From a virus: a stretch of 58,581 nt of DNA. Positions 25,818 to 54,015 of this stretch are shown here, in pieces (position 1 is the stretch's first letter; each line of letters opens with the position of its first letter). Under the pieces are notes generated by a model. That model did no database searches and had not been told where the DNA came from. It was given only the letters and a program-made list of their open reading frames with translations. The DNA lies in IMG/VR virus record IMGVR_UViG_3300025732_000046, positions 1 through 58,581 of that record, one strand, 5' to 3'. Made by a program: the position numbers and the translations under genes.

Positions 25818-28800
25818 TTATTGTTCTGTCGTTGATTGAATAGTTCCTGGAATGTTGAGAAGAGGATCATTACTAGTAATATCAGTACCAGATCTCTGAA
25901 TAGCACTTGGAGGAGTAGTGACCTTAGCAGTAATACTTTCTTGAAGGGTTGCGTATACTCTTGTTTGTGTTCCAGCAGTTTTATAATATCCAGCATAAGA
26001 AATACCCTGATCATAATATACTGCTCCATAATATGCTCTTCCGTCAACATATCCAGTTTGCTTAAGACCAACAAGATCAGTAACTTGAATAAGAACCTGT
26101 TGCTGTCCTGGTGGAAGAATAGGATCTCTTACAACTTTAAAGACGGGTTTGAATGAAGCATTTACGCCAGTAGTAGATGGAAGAGTAATTGAAGGATAAA
26201 CATTAAAAGGACTTCCGGGATTTTGAACTATAACTTCAGTAATCTGTCCAAATGATCCGCACTTATATGAAAGTTGAACGCCATTATTTGGAACTATCTG
26301 AAGTTGATCCTCTCCACAACTATAATTAATTCCCGGATTATCAACAATAACCTTATCTAAAATAAGAGTAACTGGATATCCAGTTCCGGGAGTTTCTGTT
26401 GGTAGATATCCATTTCCAGGATCTTCTACAATAATTTCATCAACAACACCCTTTCCACCGATTAACTTTGAGCAGGGAGGAGGAATTAAAATAGCAGATA
26501 TTCCCATTGGGTTTTGAACCCAAGATGCTTTATTATTGTCACTTAAAACGACATCTTTACTAATATAAAGAGCAACACCTGTTGGATTGTCTTCAGTACT
26601 TGTATCGGGGGGAGTTACATTATCTAAAGTGACTTCAACATCATAATTACCAGCAGTCAAATTAAACGTATATTGAACTTTTTCTCCAATAAAATCAGCA
26701 ATTTCTATTATATCAACTCCACCGATTTTTAATTTTGCACTATTATCTGCTTGCAAATTAAATTTATAAGTTCCACTATATGGAAAATTAACTCCAGACC
26801 AAATTAAGGTAAATACTCCAGGAGAGTTAACATTTGAAGGTGAAACAGAAAAATCATTCATAAATGTACTCCACCTTTTATCACTATATCCAATCAAAGA
26901 AGGACCACTATAAGTAACTCCATTCTTTGTTGGACTTTGTGATGTTGCTGGAAGTGAAGAGGTAGAATTTTTTATTTTATCAATATTAATCTTAATATTT
27001 TCATCATCTCCATCAGCATCACGAATTCCAAGCCTACTTGAACTATTAATAATTGGACCTCTTGCGCCAAGATCAGCACCTATAATTTCAATGGGACCAT
27101 ATTTTTTCCCACCAGTAAAGGTTCCAGATTCTTTAATTGTCTCTTCCGTAGGAACTCCAAGAGTATTACCCTCAAAAAGTCCACCCTCACCAAAGGCACC
27201 AGTTGTTCCTTGCCTAACAAACTTTACTTTCCCGCTATCAGAAGGAATTCTTACTTCTTTAGCTGCTAAACCAGCAATATAAGATGCATCGTTTACTTCC
27301 ATAATAAAAGAAATTTCAGCAGAACCAGTCCCATCAACTTGCAAATAGAAACTAGAACCCTGTTGAATAAATTTTGCCGTTAAATTACTTGAGGTTTCTT
27401 GGGGTCCACCAACTCTCCAATCTTGAGTACTAAAAATCTTTTGGTCTATTACAGAATTAACATTCTCTGGAGTGTTTTGTAACTCTACAGAAATAGTTCT
27501 AAGACCAGGTTCTAAAAATATTTTTTGCGTCTTAACTTGATTTATCAATCCAGATTCAACCCACTTTGCATCACCAGAAGTCAAGACATCAAATGCAAGA
27601 ACACCGTCTACATAAATTTTTGCAGTATTATCTCTTTGAGCTTGAAAAGCATAATAACCTCTATAAGGAATTTCTATTTGCCAAGAATTTTTATAAGTAA
27701 CTCCAGTTCCATCAGTACCAGGAGTATCTAAAGGAAGAATAGGAGATATTGCATAACGATTAAAAAAGTCAGTCCATATCTGATTTCTAACAGGATACCA
27801 AGTTTGATCAGAACCAGGGAATCTTGTAGTCCAAATTGGATTTGGAGGACACTCACCTATTGCAGGAGGTAATTGTTCTTGAGGAACTGGAGGGGTTGGT
27901 GCTTCAATTAACAATGAAACTCCGACTGGATTTTCATTCCAAGATTTTGGAGAAATAACTTCACCAACTTCAATTGTAGATGTAGTTTTATTACCTTTTT
28001 TATCATCAATCGTAATCTTGATGTTTTCATCATCTCCATCAGCATCACGAATTCCAAGCCTACTTGAACTATTAATAATTGGACCTTTTGCACCAACACC
28101 AGCACCTATAATTTCAATAGGACCATATAAATTTCCTGCAGTAAAATTGCCAGATTTTTTAATGATTTCTTCTTCAAGATATGAACCTTCAACTAAAGTA
28201 GGTTGCCCTATAGTTTGATTCTTGGCATTTACACTCGGTAGTCCTTGTGTTCTAACAAATTTTACTTTACCATTATCTGATGGAATCCTAACTTCGTTGG
28301 CAGCAAGTCCAGCAATAATAGGACTATCATTAACCTCCATAACAAAATCAATTTCTCCAGAACCAGTCCCATCAACTTGAAGATAGAAACTTGATCCTTT
28401 CTGAATAAACTTTGCTTTTATACTTGAACTACTCGTTATTGTTTGAGTTTGAGTTTCAGTTGCAGGAGTATTTAATAAATCAATTCTTATGATATGATTT
28501 CCTTCTTGAATTGTTTTTTGCAATGGAGTTGGGTTCTGATTAAAAGTACCAAGATTTCCAACTAATGCATCATCAATATAAACCTGTCCTGTATCATCAC
28601 AAACTCCTCTAAAAATATACTCACCAGTAATTGGAAAATTATATTCCCATTCCATCTTAAAAACTTTACCTGCCTCATCAGTTCCTCTTGTATCCGAAGG
28701 TTTAATAGGAGAAACTGCATAGGTATTCATAAACTCTCCCCATTGTGAGAAAGTTACATTTGTCGTATCTTGAGTTGCATACTCAATATCAAGAGCAGTA

Positions 28801-29495
28801 ATTCTATCAGGTAGAGAATCTCTTGTTGTCCAAAAGGGATACTCTAATGCCTTTTGAAATGCTTCTATTTCTTGTTTAATAGGATCTTCAGTTATGTCCG
28901 TATATGAATTTGGATCCCAAGGACCAAGTTCTTCCCCATCAAGACCATACATTAATCCATAACTTTCTGCATCACCTTCACATATTTGATACTCTTCAAA
29001 ATCTTCTTCCCCATCATACACTTCAAGTTGATCAACAGTTTCACCTAAAACTGCAGTAAAAACAGCACCACTACCATTTTGGCAAGCATCGTTTGCAGTT
29101 ACATATGGTGGATATTGATATCCATTTCCCCCAGATACAATATCAATTGCTAAGATTGCACCATCAGCACCAACGACTGGATTTCCTACCGCACCAATTC
29201 CACCACCACCAGAAATTTGAACTACTGGGGGTCCACATTCAACATAATTTTGAATTCCACCACACTCATCCTTTGTTGATAATAAATCATCGGGAGTAAG
29301 TTTATTTACTTCATTGATATTCAAATATTTAATACTATTATTTCCATCCGTAAAGATAAAAACCGTTCCTGGATTATTCTGAGCGTAACTATTTGCCTCA
29401 CATATAGTAACACCATCAACATATCCAAGAGTTGGATCAATGTATCCAACCCTGATGTCATCTGTAGTAGGTGGTCCAGATAAATTAAAGGTCAT
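25818..29495 (-). CDS. Large virion protein with repeated PA14-like modules
   Basis: 1225 aa. Two long repeats (about residues 180-520 and 560-870) each contain an Sxxx(F/W)..(F/Y)MN.YA(V/I)SP entry and a G.Y.F....D.....YIDD..V PA14-like beta-sandwich. Each also has SFYLQVDGTGS, AA(N/K)EVRIPSD.GKVKFVR, and a GPIINSSSRLGIRDADGDDEN segment. A third, shorter PA14-like module follows near 890-990. PA14 domains bind carbohydrate in many proteins, so a role in host-surface contact is plausible. It sits among hub and spike genes. A 63-base perfect repeat encodes part of the duplicated module. Confidence 0.75.
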   Translation of the reverse strand: MTFNLSGPPTTDDIRVGYIDPTLGYVDGVTICEANSYAQNNPGTVFIFTDGNNSIKYLNINEVNKLTPDDLLSTKDECGGIQNYVECGPPVVQISGGGGIGAVGNPVVGADGAILAIDIVSGGNGYQYPPYVTANDACQNGSGAVFTAVLGETVDQLEVYDGEEDFEEYQICEGDAESYGLMYGLDGEELGPWDPNSYTDITEDPIKQEIEAFQKALEYPFWTTRDSLPDRITALDIEYATQDTTNVTFSQWGEFMNTYAVSPIKPSDTRGTDEAGKVFKMEWEYNFPITGEYIFRGVCDDTGQVYIDDALVGNLGTFNQNPTPLQKTIQEGNHIIRIDLLNTPATETQTQTITSSSSIKAKFIQKGSSFYLQVDGTGSGEIDFVMEVNDSPIIAGLAANEVRIPSDNGKVKFVRTQGLPSVNAKNQTIGQPTLVEGSYLEEEIIKKSGNFTAGNLYGPIEIIGAGVGAKGPIINSSSRLGIRDADGDDENIKITIDDKKGNKTTSTIEVGEVISPKSWNENPVGVSLLIEAPTPPVPQEQLPPAIGECPPNPIWTTRFPGSDQTWYPVRNQIWTDFFNRYAISPILPLDTPGTDGTGVTYKNSWQIEIPYRGYYAFQAQRDNTAKIYVDGVLAFDVLTSGDAKWVESGLINQVKTQKIFLEPGLRTISVELQNTPENVNSVIDQKIFSTQDWRVGGPQETSSNLTAKFIQQGSSFYLQVDGTGSAEISFIMEVNDASYIAGLAAKEVRIPSDSGKVKFVRQGTTGAFGEGGLFEGNTLGVPTEETIKESGTFTGGKKYGPIEIIGADLGARGPIINSSSRLGIRDADGDDENIKINIDKIKNSTSSLPATSQSPTKNGVTYSGPSLIGYSDKRWSTFMNDFSVSPSNVNSPGVFTLIWSGVNFPYSGTYKFNLQADNSAKLKIGGVDIIEIADFIGEKVQYTFNLTAGNYDVEVTLDNVTPPDTSTEDNPTGVALYISKDVVLSDNNKASWVQNPMGISAILIPPPCSKLIGGKGVVDEIIVEDPGNGYLPTETPGTGYPVTLILDKVIVDNPGINYSCGEDQLQIVPNNGVQLSYKCGSFGQITEVIVQNPGSPFNVYPSITLPSTTGVNASFKPVFKVVRDPILPPGQQQVLIQVTDLVGLKQTGYVDGRAYYGAVYYDQGISYAGYYKTAGTQTRVYATLQESITAKVTTPPSAIQRSGTDITSNDPLLNIPGTIQSTTEQ
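26998..27060. repeat. 63-base direct repeat, copy 1
   Basis: Identical to 28024-28086, 1,026 bases away within the 1225-aa gene. It encodes the GPIINSSSRLGIRDADGDDEN part of the repeated module. Flanking sequence is similar but not identical, suggesting recent duplication or gene conversion. Confidence 0.85.
28024..28086. repeat. 63-base direct repeat, copy 2
   Basis: Second identical copy of 26998-27060, in the same reading frame. The spacing of 1,026 bases is a multiple of three (342 codons), so exchange between copies would remove one whole module without a frameshift. Confidence 0.85.
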
Positions 29496-36002: not shown

Positions 36003-39000
36003 TTAACTCCTCATACTTAACATATCATATTCATAATCAGAAGAACCACCACCAGAACTTCCACCGGCAGATGAAATAGGAATAAACATAGGAGGAGACA
36101 TCATAATCTCAGATTCATCTTCTTCAAAAATTACATCAGGTTTTTGGTCAATTTTTCTTCCAGTGTATCTACTCAAATGTTCAATTAATTTTGAAGAAGA
36201 ACTTGCTCTTTGTTTTTCATTCTCAACATTATTAATTAGAGAAAAGAATTGATTCCCCCCAAACAAATCAACAGAGTCCTTATCAATAACATATTCACCT
36301 TTGTGAAGTAACCTCATACCACCAGTAAGTGTAGGACCACCATACTCTCTACCAATAGTAAGATACTTAATATATGGCATAGGATCTTTACTTCCATATG
36401 CAGAAGTTATAGTGTCGTGTGATTCAAAGTGAACGTGAGCACCAGTAGAACTTCCCGTACTTCCCACATAACCAAGAAGTTGCCCAGCAACTGTCTTTTG
36501 TCCCTTTGTAACTGACGGGGTATCTCTCATATGAGCCATTCTAAACATTTGTTTCAAAGAAGGAACCCAAATATCAACAACATTACCATATCCACCACTA
36601 AATCCAGCAAAAACAACTTCTCCAGGTGCTCTAATTGCTATTGGTTTTCCCTGAGGAGCACCAACATCAACACCTCCATGATTTCTACCCCATCTAGGTC
36701 CAAACCTAGAAGTAATAGGATAACCACTAACAGTTCCACCAGCAGTTTCTCCTGCAGGTTGAACTTGTCCACCAATATTAGTTGCATCTGGTATTTCTGG
36801 ATCACAAACACAATCAGACACATTTGTAGCAGGAGATCCTGGAGCAATTTTTGCAGTTGATGATTCTCCTTTATATTTTTTAACACTTGCCTGATATCTT
36901 CCCAAAAATCCATCAGTGGCATTATTCTTCTCTGCTCCTCCAGGAAGAGAAGTCCAAGTTCCACTCAATTTATTTGCAACTCTTAATGGATCTGATTGCA
37001 AATCCTTAATTATTCCATTAGATCCATAACCATATGCATCAACAGCAAGTTGCCAGGCAGCTCTATCTTGATTTGCTGGAGAAAAATCTTTTAATCCTAA
37101 TTTCTTAGCAAGAGGATCCCAAGTAGTAGATAAAAATTGATATCTTCCTGCAGCATTACTTGTCAATCCAGGTCTCCAAGGAATTGGTGCATCTATTCTT
37201 GGATGATCTTTATATCCATTATTAAATGTTTCTCCGGGAAACCTAGAATTATATCCTTTTGCTTCTGAACCAGCAATAGCATCCAAAAGTGCCTTTCCCT
37301 CTGGTGGTATTTCTCCAGCAAAGACCTCTCCTCCCCCACCACCCTCTGTAGGACATTCACAATCCATCTTATCTGAAGTTTTAACATTTTCAGGTTCTTT
37401 AAGACCTAATTGAATTCTTAACTGTGATTGAATTTGGTCAAATGTACCACTGAGTATTTTAGTGATCTCTCCATTGATGGCAGAAGATAATCCATCAGAT
37501 CCCAATTTCAAAACAATCTGCCTATAAATTTCTGGATTTTTATCATATATTCCTCTCATTAAAAAATTAGAAATGGAATCGGAAACAATATTATAATCTT
37601 GAGATGAAATTCTATCACCCATTACAGATTTCATAGTCATTCCCATCAAAGAACCCAAAGAATCCACATTAGATAACTTTTTTTGAGAACGAACAATAAA
37701 ATTATATTGATTCATTGTATTATTATCTGGAGTATATGGGAATACTTTTTCAATCATTTTTTCACCGCCAATAGCAGAACCTGGATTTACATCAGACAAT
37801 TCCCGTTCAAATGTTCTAGGAATTTTTACTTTGTTTTCGTCACCAACAGTTCTTGCATATCCACCACCAGCAAATTTTTTAATTACCAAACCTCCACGAT
37901 AATATCCCATATCTCTTGCTGCTTTTTCTCCATATAAAGATCCAAAAGAACCGGGAGTTTGTAACTTCTGAGAAACTCCTTTCATACCTATAAACTGAAA
38001 CAAAGGAGCAAGAATAGAAAAATGTTCTCTAATTCCATCTCTTACTCTTGCATCAAACTTTCCAAGATTTTTATTCTGTTTCTCCAATCCCTTTCGGTCA
38101 TCATTTAATTTCATTATTGCTGCCCGTATCAATTCAACACCATATCTAAATGGAGCACCTACAATATCAAACATTACTCCAGTCCCATTCAATAACCAAA
38201 TAGCAGGACCAAGAGTTTTAGATAACCATCCAAAAAATCCTCTCTTCAAAAATCTAGTAATTGGATTCTTGTCCTGAGATGCTTCTGCAAATTTTCCAGT
38301 TGTCCACGATTCAAGTTGCTTTCCAAATCTTTTAATCTGAAATGCACCTTCACCTAAAGCAGAAGATAGCAATCCAACACCAAGAATAATTCCAGTAGCA
38401 CCTAAAGGACCAATAGCAGATCTAACTCCCTGCTTTGCTGCCTCCTGCGTTGCCCTTTTTATCCCTTCCTGCTTTATTGTTTCTTCAATAATTTCTTCAC
38501 CAGCATCTATTGCTCCCCTTGCTGCAGGACCAACAGTACCAACTCCGCCAAAATCAGTAAACAACATTCCAGCAATCAAAATTGAATTCAATAAAGAATT
38601 CGTTTGATTATTCATACTATCAAGAGCATCAATTGCCTTCTGCCCGCCAATACTCTTTACCAATTTCTTAGCATTGTCCGCTGCTTGATAACCCTTATCA
38701 ACAAAAGTGACAAGTCCATTTAAAAGTTTTCCACTCATATCAAGTATAAAATCACTAACCTTTAACAATAAAGGGAGTAATCTTAGTAATTGGGGGAGGT
38801 ATTTTAAAAGACGAATGCCAATGAATCCAAGTAAAGTACTTGTAATAAATTGCTTTAAAGAATCAAGAAAACTCATTCTTTTACCTATGGATTTTATAGG
38901 TCTTCCAAGAAATCCAAGAGTTCTTTCCAATACGGATTCATAATTAATTCTTGATTCTCTTTCAGAATTTTTTCTTCGCGTTTCACTATTCTTCTTCTGA

Positions 39001-39098
39001 AGAATTAAAGAAGATTTAATTAACTTCTCTTTAGAAATAAATTGTTTCTTAAGAGAAACAAAACTACCTGTTAAAGGAGAAGTTATTTTTGCCATCAC
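36003..39098 (-). CDS. Hub/tail protein with lambda R-like lytic transglycosylase and M23 peptidase domains
   Basis: 1031 aa. The N-terminal ~300 residues parallel those of the 1005-aa gene (basic start, SFLDSLKQFITSTLLGFIGIRLL, NSILIAGMLFTD, LLSSALGEG). About residues 603-745 match the lambda R endolysin pattern: AIAGSEAKGYNSRF, DHPRI, AGRYQFLSTTWD, LGLKDFSPANQD, SGTWTSLPGG, with the Glu of GSE as likely catalytic residue. About 790-900 are an M23 metallopeptidase: SRFGPRWGRNHGGVDVGAP and GAHVHFES (His/Asp and H-x-H zinc ligands). A GEYVIDKDSVDLFG motif follows. Two peptidoglycan-cutting activities in one tail protein suggest local wall penetration. The end overlaps the start region of the upstream gene by ATGA. 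Confidence 0.85.
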   Translation of the reverse strand: MMAKITSPLTGSFVSLKKQFISKEKLIKSSLILQKKNSETRRKNSERESRINYESVLERTLGFLGRPIKSIGKRMSFLDSLKQFITSTLLGFIGIRLLKYLPQLLRLLPLLLKVSDFILDMSGKLLNGLVTFVDKGYQAADNAKKLVKSIGGQKAIDALDSMNNQTNSLLNSILIAGMLFTDFGGVGTVGPAARGAIDAGEEIIEETIKQEGIKRATQEAAKQGVRSAIGPLGATGIILGVGLLSSALGEGAFQIKRFGKQLESWTTGKFAEASQDKNPITRFLKRGFFGWLSKTLGPAIWLLNGTGVMFDIVGAPFRYGVELIRAAIMKLNDDRKGLEKQNKNLGKFDARVRDGIREHFSILAPLFQFIGMKGVSQKLQTPGSFGSLYGEKAARDMGYYRGGLVIKKFAGGGYARTVGDENKVKIPRTFERELSDVNPGSAIGGEKMIEKVFPYTPDNNTMNQYNFIVRSQKKLSNVDSLGSLMGMTMKSVMGDRISSQDYNIVSDSISNFLMRGIYDKNPEIYRQIVLKLGSDGLSSAINGEITKILSGTFDQIQSQLRIQLGLKEPENVKTSDKMDCECPTEGGGGGEVFAGEIPPEGKALLDAIAGSEAKGYNSRFPGETFNNGYKDHPRIDAPIPWRPGLTSNAAGRYQFLSTTWDPLAKKLGLKDFSPANQDRAAWQLAVDAYGYGSNGIIKDLQSDPLRVANKLSGTWTSLPGGAEKNNATDGFLGRYQASVKKYKGESSTAKIAPGSPATNVSDCVCDPEIPDATNIGGQVQPAGETAGGTVSGYPITSRFGPRWGRNHGGVDVGAPQGKPIAIRAPGEVVFAGFSGGYGNVVDIWVPSLKQMFRMAHMRDTPSVTKGQKTVAGQLLGYVGSTGSSTGAHVHFESHDTITSAYGSKDPMPYIKYLTIGREYGGPTLTGGMRLLHKGEYVIDKDSVDLFGGNQFFSLINNVENEKQRASSSSKLIEHLSRYTGRKIDQKPDVIFEEDESEIMMSPPMFIPISSAGGSSGGGSSDYEYDMLSMRS

Positions 39099-41461
39099 TT
39101 AATACCGTAGATCTTTGCATTCTTCTTATTTCCACCAGAAGATGCTGGGAACTTTGGAACCGATGGTTTTCCACCACCCCTTCCTCCACCCATTCCTCCA
39201 CCAGCAACTTGTGGTTTTGCTTTTACAACTTTGGGTGCTGGTTTTGGCGTTGGAGTTATTGGTTTTCTATTAGGAGATGATTTTGCTAATCGTGCTTGTC
39301 TTGCTTTTTGTGCGGCAGCATAATCTTTATAATACTTACCATCAGAAGAGGAATAATATCTACCGATAGAAGCAGCACCTGCCTGCTTTGTTCTTGATTC
39401 TGATGCTTTATCTTGTGCTGCAACTCGTGCTTTATCTTTTTCACTCCCAAACATTCTCGTAAGTCCTCTACCTATTCCACCAAGCATTCCACCACGACCA
39501 GCAAACTCTGCTTTTCCTGAAGCACTTTCTGTTTCAAATCTTCTTCCCTTTCCACTACCCTCGCCACTTAATCTTTGCAATCTTTCTTTTGAAGATAACT
39601 TAGATAAACTTGCCTCTTTAGATTTGGTATTTGCTCTATAATAATCTGAAGATTTTATTCCAGCAAATCCACCGATTTTTATTCCAGCAAATCCACCGAT
39701 TCCCTTTGCCTTTTCAAAAGCAGCATCACGAGCACCAGGAAACTTAGATTGATATGGAGTATATTTCATTTCAGTTAGGTTTGATACATTTGACTGCTTT
39801 GCCAAATAATCTTTTTTAAATTTTTCATAATTATAAGTTTCATCAAATGCTGCCTTTTGATATAATGGATTTGTCGGATCACTAAATGCTTTATTCCACT
39901 CTTTTCTTATTGCATCATCGGCAGATCTTCTCTGCTTCCCCTGCTGCATAATTCTATTTCTCTGAGCAGCATCTTCTGCGATTCTTCTTTGTTGATCTGC
40001 CGTTAATCTTCCACTTCCAACTCCAGTAAGAGCATTAATAGAACCAACAATACCCTTTGCAGAAGATTTTGCTGCACTTGTTATTTCTGAGGGATTTGTA
40101 ATACCAGTCCCTTTAAATTTAGATGGATTTATTCCAATAGGAATAGTTAATCCATTAATCGTCGTTGTTTTTGTTCCCCTTCCCGCTTGTGCTTTGAGTT
40201 CTCTAGTTAAAGCAGTTTCAGTACGAACAGGTTTTTTATTTCTTTTTGCCTCTGCTGCAGCATCCTCAGAAGCATATTGTGCTTTTCTTCTTGCACTCTC
40301 TTTGTCATAAGAACCAGCACCGTGCTTAGCATCGTACTTTGCTCTTAACTCATCAACCCCACCAATAAGTCCACCTCCAGCAGCGTGAGGAACTCCGCGT
40401 ATAATTTTGGGTTGATTAGTTCCACCCCCAGCAGCGTTCATTGCCTCCAGAGTATTCACACCAAACTTTTGAACTGCCCCGCGAGACATTACAAACTCAC
40501 CATCAGTAAGCATCGCAGGAACCTTATCAATTCCCTTTGGTCCAGATACTACACCATTCATTCCTTGCATTAAACTTGCAAGTCCACCAGAACCAAAGAA
40601 TGCAGTAAATGGACTGACCTTAGAACTTAATCCTGATGTTGCATTAGTAAATAAGTCCTTAATACCTGCAAATCCACCACCAAAAGCACCCATAGCAGGA
40701 GTTGCAGGTGCTTCGGGAACATCAAGTTGTGGTGCTTCTCCACCACCCATCATATTATTAACTGCTATTCCAGTTCCTATAGTAGCAGCTGCAGCAATTC
40801 CACCCCTGAGAGCAAATCCTTTTAATCCTCCAAGTTTTCCACCACCAGCAAATACCGATGCAATTCCTTTCTTCTTTAATATCTGACCCGTTAAAATTGC
40901 CTTTGTTAATCGGGCAGCAATTACAACAAGACGGGCAGTTACTCCTATAGCAACTCCCGCAACCTTTCTTACAATTCTACCAAATCCAGTTCCAAATAAA
41001 ATATAACCAGCGACTAATGAAGGCCACCAATCCTGCAAAAACCGCATAATAGAGCGGACTTTGCTTCGGTTATTTTCATCAGCAAACCAATTCAATAATA
41101 ATATTAGAGCGCGACCAAGAAATATAGTTACAAAAAACTGTATAATTTGATCTAAGATACTTTTAACTGGGGCAACAACTGCCGTTGCTACATTTTTAAC
41201 GGTAGCAAAAGATCTCTCTAAATTTAATTCTATTCCCTTTCTTCTACTTCTTTCTTGTTCCTGTCTGGTTTGATCAGCATCTCTCACAGTTTGCTTATTT
41301 TGCTGTGAGAGAAGTTGTATAATATTTGTTAACGATTTTGATATATCTTTTAGAACAGCAGTATCGGCAGGAGAAGCAACAAGTTGTTGCTGAGGAGCAA
41401 CCGCAGCGGACTGTACTGTAGATGTTCTACCCATCAGCCTTTGTGCGTTTACTGGTGCCAT
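39095..41461 (-). CDS. Tail protein with membrane-like segments, tape-measure-like
   Basis: 788 aa. Near residues 100-190 it has strongly hydrophobic segments (ILDQIIQFFVTIFLGRALILLLNW split by charged residues, then WWPSLVAGYILFGTGFG and VAGVAIGVTARLVVIAARL). A Gly-rich hydrophobic stretch follows, then GFGVNT-like GEFVMSRGAVQKFGVNTLEAMN, a motif found near the end of tape-measure and hub proteins and parallel to GEYVIDKDSV in the two genes downstream. The C-terminal half is basic and low-complexity with no enzyme domain. It may be the tape-measure or gp29-like component, but this is tentative. Confidence 0.6.
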   Translation of the reverse strand: MAPVNAQRLMGRTSTVQSAAVAPQQQLVASPADTAVLKDISKSLTNIIQLLSQQNKQTVRDADQTRQEQERSRRKGIELNLERSFATVKNVATAVVAPVKSILDQIIQFFVTIFLGRALILLLNWFADENNRSKVRSIMRFLQDWWPSLVAGYILFGTGFGRIVRKVAGVAIGVTARLVVIAARLTKAILTGQILKKKGIASVFAGGGKLGGLKGFALRGGIAAAATIGTGIAVNNMMGGGEAPQLDVPEAPATPAMGAFGGGFAGIKDLFTNATSGLSSKVSPFTAFFGSGGLASLMQGMNGVVSGPKGIDKVPAMLTDGEFVMSRGAVQKFGVNTLEAMNAAGGGTNQPKIIRGVPHAAGGGLIGGVDELRAKYDAKHGAGSYDKESARRKAQYASEDAAAEAKRNKKPVRTETALTRELKAQAGRGTKTTTINGLTIPIGINPSKFKGTGITNPSEITSAAKSSAKGIVGSINALTGVGSGRLTADQQRRIAEDAAQRNRIMQQGKQRRSADDAIRKEWNKAFSDPTNPLYQKAAFDETYNYEKFKKDYLAKQSNVSNLTEMKYTPYQSKFPGARDAAFEKAKGIGGFAGIKIGGFAGIKSSDYYRANTKSKEASLSKLSSKERLQRLSGEGSGKGRRFETESASGKAEFAGRGGMLGGIGRGLTRMFGSEKDKARVAAQDKASESRTKQAGAASIGRYYSSSDGKYYKDYAAAQKARQARLAKSSPNRKPITPTPKPAPKVVKAKPQVAGGGMGGGRGGGKPSVPKFPASSGGNKKNAKIYGIK

Positions 41462-41471
41462 ACGAACCTAC

Positions 41472-41654
41472 TTACATATGTGAACTTTGTTGTTGCTGTT
41501 TCGCTCTTTCCTCTTCAAGATGTTGCTCTAAAAGACCAACATAGATATCTCTTTCCCAAGGAATCATATTTTCAACTTCCCATAATGAATATTTATGGTA
41601 CTGTATCAAAGCAAAAGTTAACCTAAAGTAATTTTCAAGGTCCATATGGACCAT
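41472..41654 (-). CDS. Second frame of tail assembly chaperone (gp51 position), likely made by -1 frameshift
   Basis: 60 aa from ATG 41654 (MVHMDLENYFRLTFALIQYH), with a WEVENMIPWERDIYVGLL core and a Gln-rich end. It follows gp26 where T4 has gene 51. Its frame is open back to the slippery site inside the end of gp26, so it can be translated as a C-terminal extension of gp26 (fusion of about 301 aa), as with lambda G/GT. Separate initiation at 41654 or 41645 is possible, though I see no strong ribosome site. Confidence 0.65.
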   Translation of the reverse strand: MVHMDLENYFRLTFALIQYHKYSLWEVENMIPWERDIYVGLLEQHLEEERAKQQQQSSHM

Positions 41655-41669
41655 TGCTACGCGAAAAAA
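41639..41669 (-). promoter_or_regulatory. Programmed -1 ribosomal frameshift signal at end of gp26
   Basis: The slippery heptamer T TTT TTC (41669-41663) is in the correct phase of gp26, two codons before its TAG (41659-41657). After a 10-base spacer there is a hairpin, GGTCC-ATAT-GGACC (41652-41639). Slipping back one base gives Arg-Val-Ala then Met-Val-His, entering the 60-aa frame without a stop. Confidence 0.7.
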
Positions 41670-42376
41670 GATGCTAACCCTTCAAGAACAACTTCACTTT
41701 CTACTCCAGTTTTTGGATTCTTAATCTGAAGTTTATGAGAAAGTTTTGGCATTGTTTCAAAAAACTTCTCAATTTCTTTAAATTGAGAAGAATTCATTTG
41801 ATCTAAAAATTCAGTGAGTTCTTTTTTGGTAACATCTGCTGCTGCCCATACTTCATCCTCAGTAAAAATCTTATCAATACAAGATGCAATCAGATCAAAA
41901 GATTGCTCCATAGCATTTTCATTTTTAAAATCAAAATTGGTCTTAATGAATTGATCCAACGATGGATACTTCATTTCCATCATAATAGTACTATCAACCT
42001 TTATTCTATTTGTATGCTCTTCACTTTTCTGAACTTTAATATCATCTAAATTGATAGAAACGGTGACATTTGTTTCATTATCGTCCGGACAAATAATATT
42101 AACTTCTACTTCTTCTCCAACAGATTTACCACGAATATTTAAAAACAAATACTCAATATCAAACGTAGGTAAAGTTTCTACCTTAACATCTTTTGTCAGG
42201 ATGCAATTTTTAATGACTGTTTTAATAGCATTAGTAATCTGCTTATTATCTTCACTCTCTAAAGCAATTACTAATAACTTCTCCTCTTTTACAAGAAATG
42301 GTCTATAACGAATATTTTTTCCAGTTGATGGCAATTCCAACTCATATGTTGGTGTAGAAATCTTAGGTAAAGGCAT
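41657..42376 (-). CDS. gp26: Baseplate hub subunit / tail assembly chaperone gp26
   Basis: 239 aa. YELELPSTGKNIRYRPFLVKEEKLLVIALES at the N-terminus is the hallmark of the T4 gp26/T4_baseplate family (PF12322). The middle (IEYLFLNIRGKSVGEEVEVNIIC) and the C-terminal helices also fit. The gene ends in the frameshift site at 41663-41669, which suggests that part of the product is extended into the next frame. A late promoter-like AATAAATA lies upstream at 42404-42411. Confidence 0.88.
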   Translation of the reverse strand: MPLPKISTPTYELELPSTGKNIRYRPFLVKEEKLLVIALESEDNKQITNAIKTVIKNCILTKDVKVETLPTFDIEYLFLNIRGKSVGEEVEVNIICPDDNETNVTVSINLDDIKVQKSEEHTNRIKVDSTIMMEMKYPSLDQFIKTNFDFKNENAMEQSFDLIASCIDKIFTEDEVWAAADVTKKELTEFLDQMNSSQFKEIEKFFETMPKLSHKLQIKNPKTGVESEVVLEGLASFFA

Positions 42377-42403: not shown

Positions 42404-42411
42404 TATTTATT
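42404..42411 (-). promoter_or_regulatory. Late promoter-like AATAAATA
   Basis: Minus-strand AATAAATA 28 bases upstream of gp26, overlapping the stop codon of the gp54-like gene. Confidence 0.45.
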
Positions 42412-43321
42412 ATCCATTTGTAGCAAGAGCTCTTTCTTGAGATAATGCAGTATTAATATCAGATTGTGTGACGGAATTTCCAGATGCATTAGCAGCAGAA
42501 GTAGGAACACCTCCAATATTAAATCCATTAATCGGAGTTGATAAAGCACCAGTACCTTGAAGATCTGGTGGAGAAGTACCACTAACTTCAAATTGAGGGT
42601 TGTTAAATGTTGCTTGATTAACCGGATTTGATGGATCTCCAGAAACAGAAGATGTTCCACTCGTAGCATCTGGATGCGGAGGATCTGTGGAAGGTGGATT
42701 TAACACATATCTAAGATAAGTAAATGAAACCGTACACTTCAATAGAGAAGATGATTCATAAGAAATAGGCATAGATGCTACAGAAATTGGAAATGCATTA
42801 ATAAAATCATAAACTAATGAGGTACTAGAATAATCCCTCTCAAATTTTGTAATCTGCAATCCTTGTTTAGAAACATAAAGGTCGGGATAATTAAGCCTAT
42901 AAAAATAATTAGGTGATTTAGATCCAGGTCTTGAACCAGAATCTGAAATACTTTCTCCAACAATATATTTTATCCAGGTTTCAAAATATCTAATAGCAAG
43001 ATAGTTCTGAGCGTCAACATAAAAAGTTAAATCAATTCTATCATCATATATTCTTCTATTTGCAAATCTTTGAGTTGCTCCGTGATAATCACCAGTAATA
43101 TCCATCGTACCCAAATTAGATCCGGGTAAAGTTGCTTCGGAACAAAGTAAGTTTAAAGTTTCTTGATTTATATTTGCAAACTGCTGAAGACCATTTGCTT
43201 CCAGATAAGAAGGATTGTTTGAAAACCCTTCAGGAATTGGTATTTTAACTTCAAAATGAGAAGTTAATGCAGGACGAGTTAACTTAGATTTAAAATCGTC
43301 TAATGTCCTTTTGGTAGGCAT
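42410..43321 (-). CDS. gp54: Baseplate tail-tube initiator, gp54-like
   Basis: 303 aa. It has the tail-tube fold signature found in gp19/gp48/gp54: EATLPGSNLGTMDITGDYHG, DRIDLTFYVDAQNYLAIRYFETWIKYI and FINAFPISVASMPISYES followed by CTVSFTYLRYVL. The last block parallels the T4 gp54 C-terminal region (FTGCIPISVSAPELSYD...FDVTFAYRV). The C-terminal ~80 residues are low-complexity (N/S/P/G). gp54 starts tail-tube polymerisation on the baseplate. The gene is divergent from gp4. Confidence 0.65.
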   Translation of the reverse strand: MPTKRTLDDFKSKLTRPALTSHFEVKIPIPEGFSNNPSYLEANGLQQFANINQETLNLLCSEATLPGSNLGTMDITGDYHGATQRFANRRIYDDRIDLTFYVDAQNYLAIRYFETWIKYIVGESISDSGSRPGSKSPNYFYRLNYPDLYVSKQGLQITKFERDYSSTSLVYDFINAFPISVASMPISYESSSLLKCTVSFTYLRYVLNPPSTDPPHPDATSGTSSVSGDPSNPVNQATFNNPQFEVSGTSPPDLQGTGALSTPINGFNIGGVPTSAANASGNSVTQSDINTALSQERALATNG

Positions 43322-48516: not shown

Positions 48517-49109
48517 GAATCCTCCAGAACAATCTCTTTTAAAATTTTACGAAATCTGAATATATCAATATTTAGAAAAGGGTTATATTTTTTAATTCTA
48601 CGACTGACGGTTTCCCACACTGGATCTTTCAGTTTTTTATCAAAATTATTTGAATAAGAAAAGATCTTATCGTAAATAACAAGTGTTTCTAAACTTACTT
48701 TTCCAGTTAAAAACCTTTTAAGAAGTGGAGGATGACCTTTAGAGCAACTAAAAACTTCTTCTAGTTTATTCTCTTCAAACAAAGATTGACTTTCTTCTTT
48801 AAAAAGATATGAAAGAGATTGAATTTTCTTCTGCCAGTTTTGGTATCGTTCTTCTCCTTCCTTTATCATTTCACCAATCCAAAGAGTTTCTGGATCATTG
48901 CAGGAGACAAAATTAGCAACAAAAAAGTCCACAACTTCCTGATCCGATTTTTGCCTTGCAACCTTTTCAAACCACATTCTGTCCTTTCGTTTATAAAAAG
49001 ATTGAAGGCTTGCCCTACTCTTCCCACAATATTTAAAGTAATCATAACTGTCCTTGGTGAAATGATTCTTCAAGGACAGATAAGTTTTATAGGAGTCAAA
49101 TGGCATCAT
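48513..49109 (-). CDS. gp59: Loader of replicative helicase, gp59
   Basis: 198 aa. FDSYKTYLSLKNHF...YDYFKYCGK, KDRMWFEKVARQK, VANFVSCNDPETLWIGEM and the C-terminal FLTGKVSLETLVIYDKIF parallel T4 gp59 in order and spacing (YKLYLMIKQHM, KRRDKYFFQKL, ISNLVAN...WIGD, LLQSNIISFETFILLD). It loads the gp41 helicase on gp32-coated DNA. Two adjacent ATGs (49109 and 49106) are possible starts. It follows gp33, the same pair as in T4 though in reverse order. Confidence 0.85.
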   Translation of the reverse strand: MMPFDSYKTYLSLKNHFTKDSYDYFKYCGKSRASLQSFYKRKDRMWFEKVARQKSDQEVVDFFVANFVSCNDPETLWIGEMIKEGEERYQNWQKKIQSLSYLFKEESQSLFEENKLEEVFSCSKGHPPLLKRFLTGKVSLETLVIYDKIFSYSNNFDKKLKDPVWETVSRRIKKYNPFLNIDIFRFRKILKEIVLEDS

Positions 49110-52898: not shown

Positions 52899-53111
52899 TT
52901 ACAGTGGATTTTCCTCCGCTTCCTTAATCAATGAACTTACAATCTCTTCTGTTCCGTCCATTGTTTTGATAGCGTACAGAGATGATTTTTGATATTTTTT
53001 AATTTTTTTATATTGTTTCAAAACAATATCAATATTGTCTAGATCTATGGTAATGTTTGCATCTTTACCAACTCTATTTTCTTTTCCTTGTCCCCCAAAT
53101 CCTGCGCTCAT
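52899..53111 (-). CDS. Small hypothetical protein, 70 aa
   Basis: The ATG at 53111 (MSAGFGGQGKENRVGKDANI) is chosen because it overlaps the upstream TGA by ATGA. A basic central helix (LKQYKKIKKYQKSS) precedes an acidic end. No family is recognised. Confidence 0.7.
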   Translation of the reverse strand: MSAGFGGQGKENRVGKDANITIDLDNIDIVLKQYKKIKKYQKSSLYAIKTMDGTEEIVSSLIKEAEENPL

Positions 53112-53413
53112 TTCCTTTTCTTTTTTTCTGGTTTCTGATATCCCCATAGTTTTGGGTTAGTTCTTCCGTATCCAAAATCAATTTTTTGAACTGATCCTGG
53201 ACCAAACCTATCATAATACATATCAAAAATACGAACTCTAGATCCTCTCACAAGATCAATGTGAGTTTCTCCATCTATATTATACCAAATTAAATAAGCA
53301 TCATTTGGAAAAGATTTATCTTTTGCCTTTTCAAGTAAAGTTTTTTCTAAAAGAACTTCGCAACCATATTCATGAGGCAGAACTTTTTTTTCCTTTTTTG
53401 AAGATTCTGCCAT
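53108..53413 (-). CDS. Conserved cyanophage protein, 101 aa
   Basis: The ATG at 53413 (MAESSKKEKKVLPHEYGCEV) follows AAGGAG at good spacing. A coupled alternative start is ATG 53443, which overlaps the upstream stop. The body (YGCEVLLEKTLLEKAKDKSF; DAYLIWYNIDGETHIDLVRG; FGPGSVQKIDFGYGRTNPKLWGY) is a compact beta-containing protein I recognise only as a cyanophage hypothetical. The end is Lys-rich. Confidence 0.7.
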   Translation of the reverse strand: MAESSKKEKKVLPHEYGCEVLLEKTLLEKAKDKSFPNDAYLIWYNIDGETHIDLVRGSRVRIFDMYYDRFGPGSVQKIDFGYGRTNPKLWGYQKPEKKKRK

Positions 53414-53439
53414 TGTTTTTTTCTCCTTTACAGATACTG

Positions 53440-54015
53440 TCATGAACGACCACCCCATTGAATATCTGGGTATGCTTCACTTACAATTTCTTTAGTGATT
53501 TTATATTTAGTGCTAAGTTTTTTATCTTTAACAAGGCAGAGAATCTCTGCTTCAAGAGGATGAAGTCCTTGAAGGATATTAATAAACATGGTTTCTCTAC
53601 GAAGAGAACTCAAACCATCATTACCACCTTTTACAAAATTATAAAACATATGATATTCTTTGCGAATAGATGATCTCCCTTGGTCCATAGATCCAAGAGA
53701 ATTAGAGTTTAACTCTTCCATTTTCAAAACTGCATCATCAATCTTATTGCTTAAAGTTCCACTATAAGATGTCTGTTCCCCAGTACTAGCGTATGGAACA
53801 TCCCCTTGAGGTAAAAGTGAAATTATAGAATCATCAAAATTCCAAATAAGAATTGTTTTTAAAGAAGGATCTTCATAATTTTGAAGAACTTCTACCTTTT
53901 TTGCATTTGTTCTTTGTTTTGAAGCTAGATTCAAAACTTCAAATATGAAAGGATTTGTTGGAAGATCCTCAATTGTCGATTCGGTCTTCTTCTTCGTCTT
54001 CGTCGTCGTAGTCAT
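53440..54015 (-). CDS. DUF6433-like conserved protein
   Basis: 191 aa from ATG 54015 (MTTTTKTKKK); an upstream in-frame TTG is less likely. TNPFIFEVLNLASKQRTNAKKVEVLQNYEDPSLKTILIWNFD, read in two parts, and LHPLEAEILCLVKDKKLSTKYKITKEIVSEAYPDI fit the conserved T4-like family DUF6433, of unknown function. The first 16 codons overlap, in another frame, the acidic tail of the membrane protein at 53969-54211. Confidence 0.75.
   Translation of the reverse strand: MTTTTKTKKKTESTIEDLPTNPFIFEVLNLASKQRTNAKKVEVLQNYEDPSLKTILIWNFDDSIISLLPQGDVPYASTGEQTSYSGTLSNKIDDAVLKMEELNSNSLGSMDQGRSSIRKEYHMFYNFVKGGNDGLSSLRRETMFINILQGLHPLEAEILCLVKDKKLSTKYKITKEIVSEAYPDIQWGGRS

Follow-up and report, generated by a model that had tools for sequence, protein, structure and literature searches.

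A predicted −1 ribosomal frameshift with a dnaX-like arrangement of signals in the tail assembly chaperone gene of T4-like phages

The frameshifting cassette of Escherichia coli dnaX comprises an upstream Shine–Dalgarno (SD)-like motif, the slippery heptamer A AAA AAG and a downstream hairpin. The locus described here, at the end of gp26 in a 58.6-kb virus fragment (the whole of which we call the window), shares this three-part layout but differs in its heptamer, and the two are unrelated in gene and function. Lambda slips on the heptamer GGGAAAG, unlike the T TTT TTC of our virus. In other respects the lambda pair is comparable: gpG and gpGT have a common N-terminus, arise through a −1 shift late in the first gene and are encoded beside the tail tube and tape measure genes (PMC5009743), whereas here the shift is predicted and the tape measure gene is a candidate. 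The present case differs from them in its conserved SD-like motif and stem-loop, and the comparison implies no sequence relation between the two systems. The same 2016 review describes the G–T frameshift as conserved “except T4” (PMC5009743).

A conserved poly-T −1 shift in a chaperone gene of myophages, with the tape measure gene downstream, is reported for the Vandenendeviridae and Andersonviridae (phage Adele, PMC12846349), where the motif is reported as GTTTTT in another phage family, as against the T TTT TTC found here. In T4-like phages the tail assembly chaperones were identified by Vladimirov, Gautam and Davidson (Virology 2022, doi 10.1016/j.virol.2021.11.003), a study that the PRFect paper cites for a short gene with a longer fusion gene in some of these phages, and that the Adele paper (PMC12846349) cites for poly-T −1 signals in their TAC-N genes. 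As far as these citing papers convey it, the core idea of frameshifted T4-like chaperones was already published in 2022 and is largely known. With respect to T4 itself, gp26 and gp51 are listed in a review as hub assembly chaperones, gp51 being essential but of unknown function, and required yet absent from the final particle (PMC3004832); a 2010 comparison put the gp51 of cyanophages and marine vibriophages at about 20% of the T4 length, the cyanophage protein having a similar C-terminus (PMC3037559). Within a limited set of open-access literature we found no description of the upstream SD-like motif, of a covarying hairpin or of occurrence at the breadth reported below.

Junction layout and the encoded proteins

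The whole junction lies on the minus strand, where gp26 ends in GAA GGG TTA GCA TCT TTT TTC GCG TAG. Its components and immediate neighbors are:

42410..43321, minus strand: tail tube protein, upstream of gp26 (PF23849, 4.6e-15; phrog_45, 9.9e-35)
41657..42376, minus strand: gp26, the short form, 239 aa, with its TAG stop at 41659..41657
41678..41683, minus strand: SD-like GAAGGG, 8 nt before the slip site, a putative stimulator
41663..41669, minus strand: slippery heptamer T TTT TTC in the gp26 phase, TTC being the second codon before TAG
41653..41662, minus strand: 10-nt spacer GCGTAGCAAT, with the gp26 stop inside it, read from the sequence
41639..41652, minus strand: stem-loop GGTCCATATGGACC, that is GGTCC-ATAT-GGACC, backed by covariation and excess folding
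41472..41654, minus strand: 60-aa ORF in the −1 frame (cyanophage “gp51”; phrog_634), with poor conservation of its start and SD
39095..41461, minus strand: 788-aa protein directly downstream, candidate tape measure by position (phrog_35029, unknown function)

The original prediction had pointed to a T TTT TTC in phase two codons before the gp26 stop, a 10-base spacer and a perfect hairpin, all of which are present; the SD-like GAAGGG is an element additional to these. It had also envisaged a −1 frame running stop-free into the 60-aa ORF and an extended product of about 301 aa, and the computed value agrees: the predicted product of a −1 slip has 301 aa, consisting of 238 gp26 residues followed by 63 from the −1 frame. 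gp26 matches PF12322 (E 2.3e-78, 263 bits against a cut-off of 24.5) and phrog_150 (8.6e-83), which would make the short form a TAC-N or G-like protein, and it is the only PF12322 gene that a search for a second one found in the window, which is itself a 58.6-kb virus fragment. For the 60-aa ORF the match is to phrog_634 (gp51, “baseplate hub assembly catalyst”; 1.3e-25) and also to the C-terminal end of phrog_150, which implies that some members of the family hold both parts in one chain.

AF2 models of gp26 and of a long form that is naturally in frame (locus L259, of the T4 gp51 type) have pLDDT values of 85.7 and 89.5, respectively. Fold matches in predicted viral structure libraries are T4-like hub proteins. 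A sequence search against solved structures found no relative; by fold, the best-ranked PDB entry is 2OB9, the tail assembly chaperone of HK97, at a level short of significance (E 0.78, prob 0.30), and similarity of the modeled fold to this solved chaperone is suggestive only.

The 788-aa protein contains two strongly hydrophobic segments and, from its position, is a candidate for the tape measure role. Beyond it lies a second large downstream protein (36003..39098, minus strand) with an M23 peptidase domain and a lysozyme-like match; the product of one or other of these two genes is probably the cyanophage tape measure protein, which is without annotation. Elsewhere in the window, a 1225-aa protein (25818..29495, minus strand) shows similarity to a virion structural family and partly also to families of major head proteins, an unusual combination for one chain of that length. 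A small gene of unknown function (53108..53458, minus strand) carries the in-phase heptamers AAAAAAG and CCCAAAA near its end (53120, 53150), with 72–82 open codons in the −1 frame. A further heptamer at 48537 was rejected as a candidate: its extension is just the adjoining gene, which has an SD and an ATG of its own.

Conservation of the slip site and its flanking elements

Relatives of gp26 are encoded in 689 phage records. Junctions of the one-gene type were read in named phages and viral contigs, 245 in all and 198 of them distinct; this set includes many related sequences, such that the counts that follow are not counts of independent events. The heptamer is TTTTTTC in 187 of the distinct junctions and TTTTTTT in 10, always in the same phase, and neither in one; T TTT TT(C/T) is thus kept in 197/198, in relatives with as little as 24% protein identity, and in 198/198 the −1 frame stays open for at least 122 nt beyond the stop. 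Judged from these junctions, the conservation of the slip site is far beyond chance. It was in part on this retention of slip site and open frame among relatives that the original prediction had staked itself beforehand, and it withstands the comparison.

The one-gene relatives include cyanophages, Sinorhizobium phage phiM19, Agrobacterium phage OLIVR5, Stenotrophomonas phage Moby, Aeromonas phage CC2, Vibrio phage ValKK3, Nitratidesulfovibrio phage SRB7757 and Acinetobacter phage SH-Ab 15599, and the same slip site is seen in the Aeromonas phages PX29 and 65, which were examined additionally. A scan of viral contigs with the Nitratidesulfovibrio gp26 as query gave no matches. Vibrio phage K452 (locus L097, 3190..3230) is the sole distinct one-gene relative without the canonical heptamer; it reads ACG CTT TTT GCG TAATG, and may slip on its T5 run or use the overlapping start codon.

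On the downstream side, the 51 nt following the slip were folded for 197 junctions and compared with versions carrying synonymous codons in the −1 frame. The mean folding energy is −10.0 kcal/mol as against −5.7 kcal/mol for these synonymous nulls (mean z −1.8), with 54% of the junctions at p ≤0.05, whereas a control stretch further downstream has no excess folding (z −0.11); the virus's own junction has a moderate excess (z −1.7). For the 5-bp stem in the 75 closest distinct junctions, 85% of cells are paired, as compared with 10–52% for slid versions, and 44 cells are changed on both sides; 44 sequences have the complete stem, whereas 2000 arm shuffles gave 27 on average and 36 at most. Other lineages have different stems at roughly the same location.

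On the upstream side, an SD-like tetramer stands 8 nt before the slip in 177/197 junctions, as opposed to 212/4107 control windows (5%). The Glu codon within it is GAG in 124/160 cases, compared with 31% at other places, and when Glu is instead encoded by GAA, the Gly that follows often has GGG, a codon otherwise rare (17/36). The upstream motif is therefore, as far as codon choice can tell, under selection at synonymous sites, and it and the downstream structure would both qualify as stimulatory elements of a programmed −1 frameshift.

T4 counterparts and the status of the −1 frame

T4 genes 26 and 51 lie on opposite strands. Their products both match PF12322, gp51 over its first 201 residues, and the C-terminal domain of phrog_634 is present in T4 gp51 and not in T4 gp26. 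By these matches, T4 gp26 and gp51 are paralogues, gp26 corresponding to the short form and gp51 to an in-frame long form. The proposal that gp26 and the gene in the gp51 position form a short/long pair thereby gains a natural precedent, T4 gp51 being an in-frame version of the predicted fusion. A slip site was sought in T4 genes 26 and 51 and in their counterparts from Acinetobacter, Aeromonas 44RR and Klebsiella KM3 phages, and none was found; T4 accordingly has two paralogous genes without a slip site, whereas our virus has one gene with a predicted −1 shift, all within the same protein family. In a maximum-likelihood tree the one-gene, gp26 and gp51 types each fall on one side of a branch, and the tree, being unrooted, is silent on the direction of change between these modes of encoding.

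Public annotations treat gp26 and the 60-aa ORF as separate, ordinary genes, and would have the latter translated on its own by coupled reinitiation at an ATG just past the gp26 stop. Indeed, the virus's own −1 ORF has an ATG at 41654, which is the commonest state of that codon (76/197), and in Moby, K452 and ValKK3 the −1 frame starts overlap or abut the gp26 stop. However, no ATG is present within the first 8 codons after the slip in 80/197 junctions, 46/197 have no ATG, GTG or TTG within the first 14, and only 3/151 have an SD-like motif ahead of the initial start of the −1 ORF; by these features, the −1 ORF does not look like a normal gene. Reinitiation also leaves the invariant T TTT TT(C/T), the stimulators and the fused gp51 of T4 without explanation, and we regard it as a highly improbable account of the junction. 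A stand-alone gp51 made in this manner is disfavoured by the missing starts and ribosome-binding sites; such a product could possibly be made in those relatives that have a −1 frame ATG beside the gp26 stop, and some minor reinitiation might occur in addition to frameshifting. The 60-aa ORF most probably serves to extend the C-terminus of the long form (TAC-NC or GT-like, 301 aa overall). In the public records of Aeromonas phage CC2 (L085), Synechococcus phage S-CAM22 (L091) and Aeromonas phage 65 (L270), the −1 extension is omitted or truncated because it has no good start codon.

Scant probability attaches to a long form made when RNA polymerase slips on the T6 run during transcription: the heptamer does contain six consecutive T, in some junctions seven, but six T is short for polymerase slippage. 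Strict adherence to the codon register, a last base that is usually C, the SD-like motif and the RNA structure would all suit a ribosome, while the polymerase needs none of them.

A T precedes the TTT TTC in 197/197 junctions, the amino acid encoded there varying among S, N, D, A, T, G or H, and TTT TTC encodes the Phe–Phe of the slip site in 187/197 but just 15/197 of the other Phe–Phe pairs in these genes. Because this T is invariant and the spelling is rare at other Phe–Phe pairs, selection appears to act on the nucleotides and not on the protein alone. We therefore give next to no credence to the motif being a mere protein constraint for Phe–Phe at the gp26 C-terminus with an incidentally open −1 frame: the family does conserve Phe–Phe, and the terminal ..KEFFELL of T4 gp26 contains it too, but the codon data already contradict a pure protein constraint, and the −1 frame encodes a conserved protein domain.

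A two-form chaperone and its alternative encodings

We consider it very probable that a single gene at this locus yields both a short and a long tail assembly chaperone by −1 ribosomal frameshifting, the occurrence and the efficiency of the shift being deduced from sequence. Most ribosomes would end at the gp26 stop to give the 239-aa short form; a fraction would slip back one base on T TTT TTC and pass the TAG to give the 301-aa long form, probably aided by pairing of the upstream SD-like motif with 16S rRNA and by the downstream stem-loop. If the analogy with lambda G/GT holds, binding of the tape measure protein would fall to the short form, whereas tube or hub subunits would be brought in by the extension of the long form. 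Such a G/GT-type chaperone role would fit the gene order, the short/long pair and the cited literature, and T4 would make the same two products from its paralogous genes 26 and 51.

More broadly, we think it likely that a dnaX-style cassette, made up of the SD-like motif, T TTT TTC and a lineage-variable stem-loop, is present in the chaperone gene of T4-like phages outside the T4 two-gene clade, on hosts that include cyanobacteria, vibrios, rhizobia, Aeromonas, Stenotrophomonas and a sulfate reducer, and that its stimulators may be previously undescribed. The T4 lineage holds the equivalent of this cassette as a gene pair; therefore, frameshifting and gene duplication would be interchangeable means of supplying the short and long forms. 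The frameshift would also explain the apparent truncation of the “gp51” of cyanophages and marine vibriophages, the missing first 200 residues of which would come from gp26. In many public records the extension is instead shown as a separate small “hub assembly catalyst”, is truncated or is absent. These phages may also offer a natural comparison in which the same protein pair is made by frameshifting in one clade and from two genes in another.
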